This document shows, in pieces, positions 2,565-38,116 of a DNA stretch of 40,839 nt. The stretch lies in the NCBI GenBank assembly GCA_021298155.1, contig JAJTEN010000020.1:1-40839 (forward strand). The letters are read 5' to 3'. This stretch comes from Sphingobacteriales bacterium. GTDB lineage: Bacteria > Bacteroidota > Bacteroidia > UKL13-3. Made by a program: the position numbers and the translations under genes. How positions within the stretch are numbered: the first letter of the stretch is position 1; each line of letters begins with the position of its first letter. The notes under the pieces are model-generated. The model had not been told where the DNA came from. It did not search any database and saw only the letters and a program-made list of their open reading frames with translations.

Positions 2565-3978
2565 GTAAAGCTCCTTTCTCAACTACATCATGACTATGGT
2601 GCGCGCCGTGTGCGTGACTATCATGGTCGTGTGCGTGGGTTGGTATGATACTTTTTACCTCAGCCATATTAATAGAAGGTAAAAATTTGATGAATAAGAA
2701 AAATAAGAAGAAGAATAAACCAAATGACCCAATTAAGATACTCACCTCAGTAATGGTAGGCGTGTACATAGCCCAAGATGATGGTAAGAAATCTCTGTGT
2801 AATGAGGTTACAATAATTACGAAACGCTCAAACCACATTCCAATATTTACGATGATAGACATCACAAATAAGAATGCTGGATTGGTTCTTAATTTTCTGA
2901 ACCAAAATACCTGCGGCGCAATTAAGTTACAACTCATCATGGTCCAATATGCCCACCAGTAAGGACCAAAAGCCCTGTTTAAGAATGCATATTGTTCATA
3001 TTCTACTCCAGAATAAGCGGCCACAAAGAATTCAGTGATATAAGCCATACCTACCATGGTACCTGTAACTAATATAATTTTAGCCATGGCATCTAAGTGC
3101 TCTTCTGTAATATAATCTTTATAATTCATTACTTCGCGGGCAATAACCAAAAGGGTTAATACCATACCAAATCCAGAGAAGATAGCACCTGCCACAAAGT
3201 ATGGAGGGAAGATTGTGGTATGCCAACCTGGTACTAATGAGGTTGCAAAGTCCATTGATACAATAGAGTGTACAGATAATACAAGCGGTGTAGAAATACC
3301 AGCTAAAATTAAACTGATAACTTCATACCTATGCCAAGTGCGGGTAGAACCCGTCCAACCCATGGCAAATAAACCATACCAGAATTTTCTTCCAGCAGTG
3401 GTAGCTCTATCTCTCACGGTAGCAATATCTGGAATTAAACCTACATACCAGAATACCAAGGATACCGAGAAGTAAGTTGAAATTGCAAATACGTCCCACA
3501 CAAGTGGTGAGTTAAAGTTTACCCACAAGGTACCAAATGCATTTGGCAATGGAATTGGCCAATAAGCTACCCACGGTCTACCCATGTGAGATAAAATGAA
3601 TGATGCCGCACAAATTACAGCGAAAATAGTCATAGCCTCCGCAGAGCGGTTGATAGACATTCTCCATTTTTGGCGAAACAATAATAATACAGCTGAGATA
3701 AGGGTACCAGCGTGACCAATACCTACCCAGAACACGAAGTTGGTAATATCAAAAGCCCAACCTACGGTCTTGTTTAATCCCCAGGCTCCCAAACCAACTA
3801 CCATCGTATAGGTGGTTGATCCAATCCAAAGGGCTAAAGTCAAAGTTGCAAGGATAAAGCCAATCCACCAGCCTTTGGTGGGTGCATTTTCCAATGGACG
3901 CGTAATGTCTCTGGTGACATCACGGTATGTTTTTCCACCGGTTACTAACTGATCTCTAATTGGTGATTCGTATGACAT
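2554..3978 (-). CDS. actC: ActC, NrfD-like quinol-binding subunit of ACIII
   Basis: This 474-residue integral membrane protein of the NrfD/PsrC family has about ten transmembrane segments from residue 36 onward. It is the ACIII subunit known to bind the quinol and sit beneath the iron-sulfur subunit ActB. The region after residue 60, with conserved Gly/Trp and the HAGTLISA segment, is typical of the family. The C-terminus is a His-rich tail from about residue 450 (repeated [11 protein letters not shown]-type residues), possibly metal-binding or simply a cytoplasmic tail. It starts 22 bases after actB and overlaps actD by 11 bases. Confidence 0.95.
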
Positions 3979-35489: not shown

Positions 35490-36221
35490 TTAACGGTTAC
35501 ACAAATCTCTGATTGCCACAGAAGCAACTGTACACCCAAACACGGTTGGCATGTAGGAAATAGTTCCCGGTGCCGATTTTTTATTTCGGCCATTCATTAG
35601 CATCAATTGCGAATTAGTATAAGGCTTTTCGGCAGAAAAAACCGATTTAACACCCTTATATACACCTAATCTATGCAAGTATTTACGGGTATACCGTGCT
35701 AAATGGCAGTTGTAGGTTTCAGAAATATCTGCTACCTTAACCTGAGTTGGATCAACCTTAGAACCCGCACCCATACTGCTAATAATAGGAATTCCTCTAT
35801 CTACACATGCCTTAATATAATACACTTTTGGCGAAAGCGTATCAATGCAATCTAGTGCATAATCAAACTTGTTATTATCGAGCACATCAAAAGTAAGTTG
35901 ATCTCTAAAATATTCTGGAATAACCTGCAATTGTAAATCCGGGTTGATATCCAATAAACGCTCGGCTAACACATCTGCCTTTACCTTTCCCTCTGTACTT
36001 TTTAAGGCTGGAATTTGTCTGTTTCTATTCGTTGGATCTACCGTATCGGCATCTACTATAGTCATTTGCATTACACCCGATCTGGCAATCATTTCAGCGG
36101 CAATGCCCCCTACTCCACCCAAACCAACTACCAATACATTTGAATTGATTAATTTAGTTAATTGTTCAGAACCTAAAAGAAGTTCTGTTCTACCCATCCA
36201 GTCCTGAATTTGAAACGACAT
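35490..36221 (-). CDS. tcdA: tRNA threonylcarbamoyladenosine dehydratase TcdA
   Basis: This 243-residue ThiF/E1-like protein has the nucleotide-binding motif VVGLGGVGG near 31-39, DADTVDPTNRNRQ near 57-69 and the substrate segment ALDCIDTLSPK. TcdA (CsdL) uses ATP to cyclise t6A to ct6A at position 37 of tRNAs decoding ANN codons. Length and motifs fit TcdA better than MoeB or ThiF. It follows the metF remnant by 18 bases on the same strand and may share its transcript. Confidence 0.93.
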   Translation of the reverse strand: MSFQIQDWMGRTELLLGSEQLTKLINSNVLVVGLGGVGGIAAEMIARSGVMQMTIVDADTVDPTNRNRQIPALKSTEGKVKADVLAERLLDINPDLQLQVIPEYFRDQLTFDVLDNNKFDYALDCIDTLSPKVYYIKACVDRGIPIISSMGAGSKVDPTQVKVADISETYNCHLARYTRKYLHRLGVYKGVKSVFSAEKPYTNSQLMLMNGRNKKSAPGTISYMPTVFGCTVASVAIRDLCNR

Positions 36222-36239: not shown

Positions 36240-37047
36240 TTAAAAAACGTGTGAGGCAATTGCTTTAGTAACCTCTCCTAAACCCATAGTGTAATAGTGT
36301 AAAACGGGCACCTTGGCTTTCTTTAAAGCTTTACTTTGCTGCACTGCCCAATCAATACCAACTTGCTTTACGGCCTTATCGTCTTTACAATTTTCTACGG
36401 CCTGAACCAAATCTTCTGGAATATCTATATGAAACACTTTTGGCAGAACGGTAAGCTGTTTTTTAGTGGTTAATGGTTTTAAACCAGGTATTATAGGTAT
36501 AGTTATTCCAGCGTTTTTACATGTTTCTACAAACTCAAAATACTTGTCGTTATTAAAAAACATTTGTGTTACAATGTATTCAGCACCTGCATCTACCTTT
36601 TGCTTTAACCAGCGTAAATCACTAATTCCCATCTGGTTCTGGCACAAAATTGGGTTCATTTTTAATATTATCACCACGTAAAACCAACACATTATCAATT
36701 CCCAAAAAATGTAAATCGATCAAGGCATTTTCCGTTTCTTCCTTGCTAAAGCCACCACAAATCAAATGTGGAACGGTATCAATGTGATACTTATTCATTA
36801 AAGCTGCACAAATAGCAACCGTTCCCGGACGTTTACGGGTGTACACTTTATCAAATCCACCATCTTTTCTTTTGCGTAACACAAACTCTTCTCTGTGGTA
36901 AGTAACATCAATAAATGCGGGCTTAAACTCCATTAAGGGATCTAAACCATGGTAAATGGAATTAATGTCTTTACCCTTCAAAGGCGGTAAAATCTCAATG
37001 GAAAACAAGGTTTCCTTGGCATTTTTTATATGATCAGTAACTTTCAT
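36240..37047 (-). pseudogene. metF: metF (methylenetetrahydrofolate reductase) with internal deletion and frameshift
   Basis: MetF reduces 5,10-methylenetetrahydrofolate to the 5-methyl form for methionine synthesis. The N-terminal part (37047-36622, 141 codons) is well conserved through FSIEILPPLKG, FIDVTYHREE, RKRPGT and VPHLICGGFSKEETENALI, then stops at TAG after VPEPDGN. The C-terminal part continues in another frame from about 36635 (SDLRWLKQKVDAGAEYIVTQ) to HYYTMG near the end. Compared with the usual ~318 residues, about 50 central residues, including the YPE-x-H region, are missing at the joint. The loss is not a frameshift alone, so readthrough cannot restore the enzyme. Confidence 0.9.
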
Positions 37048-37099: not shown

Positions 37100-38116
37100 T
37101 CAATGGGCATTTTGATTCATTTCCAATATAATTTTCCCAAACTGTTTTCCTTCGTTCATGTATTTTGCAGCTTCTTCGCATTGGTTCAAGCCAAATGTTT
37201 TTGCCACTACAGGAACCATTTTATGTTGGCTTACAAAGTTGAGCATTTCTTCAAATTGTTCATCGCTACCCATGGTTGAACCCAAAATATCTATTTGCTT
37301 CCAAAACACTTTTGCTGGCGCACCTGCATTCCACACTCCAGCTGTGGCACCATAAACGGCTATTCTTCCACCTGGTTTACACAAGTCTATTAACTTGGCA
37401 AAATCTGAACCACCTGCGCCATCAATGATAACATCAAAACCGCCCGTTTCTTTAGCTAATTGCTTATGCCAATCTGCTGTTTTATAATTCGCATATCCGC
37501 TAACTCCCATTGCCATGGCCTGATCCAATTTTTCTTGACTGCCACTGGTAACATAAACCTTGCAGGAAGCAGCTAAAGCAAATTGAGCAGCCATTAAAGC
37601 CACGCCACCACCAATGCCTGTTATTAATACATGTTCACCCGCTTGCGCTTTTGCTCGGCCTATCAAGGCCCTAAATGCTGTTAAACCGGCCAAAGGTAAA
37701 GCTGCTGCCGCTTCACTTGTTAAATGTGCTGGCTTGGGGTAAATCAAACGAGCAGGAACCTTCACATATTCTGCAAAAGTGCCATGATTTGGCAAACCAA
37801 GTATAACATAATCTTTAGCTTGCACCCTAGCATTACCACCCCAATTCAAAGAAGGGTTTATAATTACCTCCTTGCCCAATAAGTCTGTATTTACCGCAGT
37901 GCCAATTTCTTCAACTATTCCACAAGCATCACTTCCACAAATGATAGGAAATACCAAGCCAGCATATTGCCCTTTTTGTATCCAAACATCTCGGTGGTTC
38001 ATCGCTGCATGTTGCACCCTAATTAAAACCTCATTTGGTTCAATAAGCGGTTTTTCAAAATCTTGAAATTGATATGCCTCATTTATTCCATGTAAAACAG
38101 CTGCTTTCATACCCAT
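37100..38116 (-). CDS. MDR-family zinc-binding-type oxidoreductase
   Basis: This 338-residue medium-chain dehydrogenase/reductase has the GroES-like N-terminal domain (MNHRDVWIQKGQY at about 39-51) and a Rossmann NAD(P) domain with VLITGIGGGVALMAAQ. The four-Cys structural zinc loop of true alcohol dehydrogenases is absent: the region reads LNWGGNARVQ. It is therefore closer to quinone oxidoreductases or enoyl reductases; the substrate is unknown. Its ATG overlaps the porZ stop by one base (TAATG). Confidence 0.9.
   Translation of the reverse strand: MGMKAAVLHGINEAYQFQDFEKPLIEPNEVLIRVQHAAMNHRDVWIQKGQYAGLVFPIICGSDACGIVEEIGTAVNTDLLGKEVIINPSLNWGGNARVQAKDYVILGLPNHGTFAEYVKVPARLIYPKPAHLTSEAAAALPLAGLTAFRALIGRAKAQAGEHVLITGIGGGVALMAAQFALAASCKVYVTSGSQEKLDQAMAMGVSGYANYKTADWHKQLAKETGGFDVIIDGAGGSDFAKLIDLCKPGGRIAVYGATAGVWNAGAPAKVFWKQIDILGSTMGSDEQFEEMLNFVSQHKMVPVVAKTFGLNQCEEAAKYMNEGKQFGKIILEMNQNAH

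Follow-up and report, generated by a model that had tools for sequence, protein, structure and literature searches.

The metF locus and the extent of the deletion

The window analysed here, 40,839 bp long, is the whole of contig C33 (positions 1-40839) of G000, a 2.50-Mb draft genome in 71 contigs, from an uncultured Bacteroidota bacterium of freshwater type, that is 98.7% complete. It contains, between two intact genes, two pieces of a gene that belong to the MetF family (5,10-methylenetetrahydrofolate reductase; PF02219, TIGR00676):

35490..36221, minus strand: ThiF-family protein, downstream neighbour, intact (PF00899, E 2e-39; full length against relatives)
36240-37047, minus strand: metF, both pieces, 808 bp
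36240..36623, minus strand: metF 3' piece, in another frame than the 5' piece (PF02219 profile 158-284, E 3.9e-35)
36622..37047, minus strand: metF 5' piece, residues 1-141 (PF02219 profile 3-118, E 6.5e-17), with TAG at the joint
36624..36625, no strand: metF joint, where 146 bp of the relatives are missing (DNA alignments with 8, then 12 relatives)
37100..38116, minus strand: zinc-binding alcohol dehydrogenase-like protein, upstream neighbour, intact (PF00107, PF08240; full length against relatives)

The order, strand and genomic neighbours of the two pieces match those in relatives. In the nearest relatives metF encodes 317 amino acids (954 bp with its stop), and the window gene differs from these by a single 146-bp gap and no other indel, which bears out the internal, out-of-frame deletion proposed in a first-pass annotation of this DNA; the alignment with close relatives that it recommended places the joint between positions 36625 and 36624. 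As 146 is not a multiple of three, the first frame meets TAG right after N141, and homology restarts at S191 in the second piece, which corresponds to residues 191-317 of the intact protein in the relative, followed by the stop, and lies in a second ORF within 36240-36698. The two halves sum to 268 residues (141 + 127) against 317, where about 269 against roughly 318 had been estimated. The approximately 49 codons lost (residues 142-190) belong to the central part of the TIM barrel and include, as the annotation had also claimed for some 50 central residues, the YPE-x-H region: the YPEKH motif, at residues 179-183 of the relative, aligns with YPEGH of the Thermus MTHFR 1v93.

Both pieces score above the PF02219 cut-off, but at 150 and 94 bits they fall far under the TIGR00676 cut-off of 293.7, which the intact MetF of a relative passes with 298.7. 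The window gene thus departs from its family in lacking a complete barrel in one frame, with 49 central residues absent and the frame broken. Both pieces are conserved and their frames overlap by a few bases, as might be expected if they acted together as a split MetF, or if a frameshift yielded a shortened active enzyme; yet residues 142-190 are missing in any reading, among them a motif conserved as far as the Thermus enzyme, and such a form occurs in no relative, so that we regard a working product of either kind as very improbable.

The bases at the joint are GGGAAT / TAGTGAT, for which the relatives offer no repeat match of useful length. A blunt loss of 146 bp and an in-frame loss of 147 bp at a shared GAAT with one inserted T fit the alignment equally well. 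Deletion between direct repeats was considered and rejected, since the breakpoint regions of the relatives have at most 5 bases in common and the 5-base word is not at the joint. The joint sequence was not found in viral contigs.

Conservation in relatives and age of the lesion

Among public genomes, the nearest relative (L003, with the same protein in G017) carries an intact 317-aa MetF, and the gene is likewise intact and in one frame in all 18 of the other genus genomes, so that the window gene is the only one in the genus with a disabling lesion. More widely, 95 of 98 related loci are full length in one frame; of the three exceptions, two are truncated where the available sequence ends. 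The third, L014 from another draft genome, has a different metF frameshift, at about position 3798 in the C-terminal third (around residues 243-266).

The two pieces have kept a strong mark of selection. Amino-acid identity to the sister species is 99% for the 5' piece and 95% for the 3' piece, and differences at codon positions 1/2/3 number 9/1/109, giving a dN of 0.018 against a dS of about 1.5, the latter being near saturation and hence rough. By parsimony, 49 synonymous and 5 nonsynonymous changes fall on the window branch, compared with 55 and 3 on the sister branch. Had the window branch been neutral throughout, approximately 190 nonsynonymous changes would be expected, and at most about 5.5% of the branch (95% upper bound) can have passed free of selection. 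Further decay, in the form of other indels or stops, was not seen in the fragments.

These patterns bear on whether MetF was lost long ago in a lineage that has since adapted. Such an old pseudogene would find some encouragement in the methionine pathway, whose usual form is incomplete in G000 anyway (neither metX nor metA was found), but the substitution pattern, the want of additional lesions and the intact gene in all relatives count against it, and we think it highly unlikely. Judged by the selection still evident in both fragments, the lesion arose within about the final 5% of the branch or is absent from the organism; that is, it is very young or in the assembly only. The recent event that had been claimed from the conservation of the two halves is in keeping with this. 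Recent internal-deletion pseudogenes of bacteria likewise combine one out-of-frame deletion with conserved flanks and an orthologue intact in relatives; the window gene differs from them only in the gene affected, and is known here from an assembly alone.

Copy number and assembly quality

A search of G000 for a second metF or a displaced copy of the missing segment, within its 98.7% completeness, found neither, and PF02219 recovers only the two pieces. The joint lies inside the contig, 3.8 kb away from its end, and no N occurs in the DNA examined. The window is collinear with the genome of a genus relative, G012, and no other conserved window gene is broken. We also surveyed breaks between 716 kb of G000 and 880 kb of G012, in which 152 G012 ORFs each had a match at a single place covering at least 80%; metF was the sole ORF of these to be split between frames. 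Five other ORFs were flagged for in-frame stops, and these involved an opposite longer frame or a stop near the gene end. From the collinearity and the lack of another clear break in about 150 genes, the assembly appears good in general, and a generally error-prone assembly was set aside as the cause. In the reverse comparison, two genes that are intact in G000 look frame-split in G012 C1 (the matches of loci L137 and L188).

A more local fault is a serious contender, though one to which we give somewhat less than even odds: a mis-join, a gap-closing error or a mixed-strain consensus, with a functional metF in the organism itself or in the bulk of its population. The strong selection under which both pieces have remained until now, the intact gene in every genus relative, the intact metH, which relies on the MetF product, the 71-contig draft state of the genome and the separate metF break in the L014 draft all point this way, and an artefact would look just like the undecayed fragments seen here. 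Against it stand the roughly 150 other genes with no comparable break and the breakpoints, which offer no long repeat to mislead a k-mer assembler. With no breakpoint word longer than 5 bases in the relatives, collapse of a repeated k-mer by the assembler is disfavoured as the explanation; this absence of a long repeat still leaves room for a gap-closing error or a mixture of strains, either of which may have produced the joint.

On balance we slightly favour a real and recent event, in which the sequenced cells would carry a very young 146-bp deletion in their only metF, leaving a pseudogene (probability roughly 0.55). The clean single gap, the conserved flanks and the lack of metX and metA in G000 speak for this reading. 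Of the interpretation offered in the first-pass annotation, then, the deletion, the lost motif and the recency have stood, with no second metF found; its choice between loss in the lineage and assembly error persists, with loss a little ahead.

Methionine metabolism in the genus and possible consequences of a metF loss

The search for metH and metE that the annotation had also recommended recovered an intact metH, and metE was not found in G000, which speaks against a bypass through MetE. A real deletion would therefore block homocysteine remethylation via methyl-THF. Complete synthesis of methionine by the usual routes seems doubtful even before the metF break, because the known homoserine acyltransferases are absent: MetX in G000 amounts to a 22-bit partial match, compared with a full-length 342-bit match in G009, and metA was not found. 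Among the 19 genus genomes surveyed (G000-G018), a strong MetX match occurs only in G009 and, at a contig end, in G003; for MetA no genome gave one. G000 does encode one strong PLP enzyme of Cys/Met metabolism; a MetQ-type lipoprotein was not found there. The genus thus combines metF intact in 18 genomes and metH in G000 with known homoserine acyltransferases that are mostly absent. We infer that MetF and MetH serve in this genus probably in the main for homocysteine remethylation, not for complete methionine synthesis, and that its methionine would be at least partly external, or homocysteine might come by an unrecognised route.

Under the favoured reading of a real deletion, translation of the first piece would end at the joint, and any frameshifted product would still be without some 49 mid-barrel residues including YPEKH. 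The protein would then be dead and the reduction of methylene-THF to methyl-THF lost; the intact MetH would be deprived of its methyl donor, making the cell dependent on an external supply of methionine. Cells may tolerate this loss, since MetF and MetH probably only recycle homocysteine, most of the genus being already without known homoserine acyltransferases. It is possible, and we offer this tentatively, that MTHFR has only just disappeared from an aquatic bacterium whose B12-dependent MetH is still intact, as a first step in losing homocysteine remethylation.

Should the deletion prove real, it would add a fresh case of methionine dependence arising step by step in freshwater-type Bacteroidota, seen before other decay has set in; should it be an artefact, it shows the danger of inferring auxotrophy when a single gene is broken in a draft genome. 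Pseudogene or artefact, the kind of event is ordinary, and general understanding is unchanged under both readings. The literature on metF pseudogenes, methionine auxotrophy in freshwater Bacteroidetes and UKL13-3 yielded nothing specific to a loss of metF here.

MetH is encoded on contig C4 of G000 by two intact genes (342 and 899 aa), and the same split in G012 indicates that it is natural. Between them, on the minus strand, lies a small ORF (L109 10960-11374, G000:C4) that by eye resembles the four-helix-bundle protein of 23S rRNA insertions.
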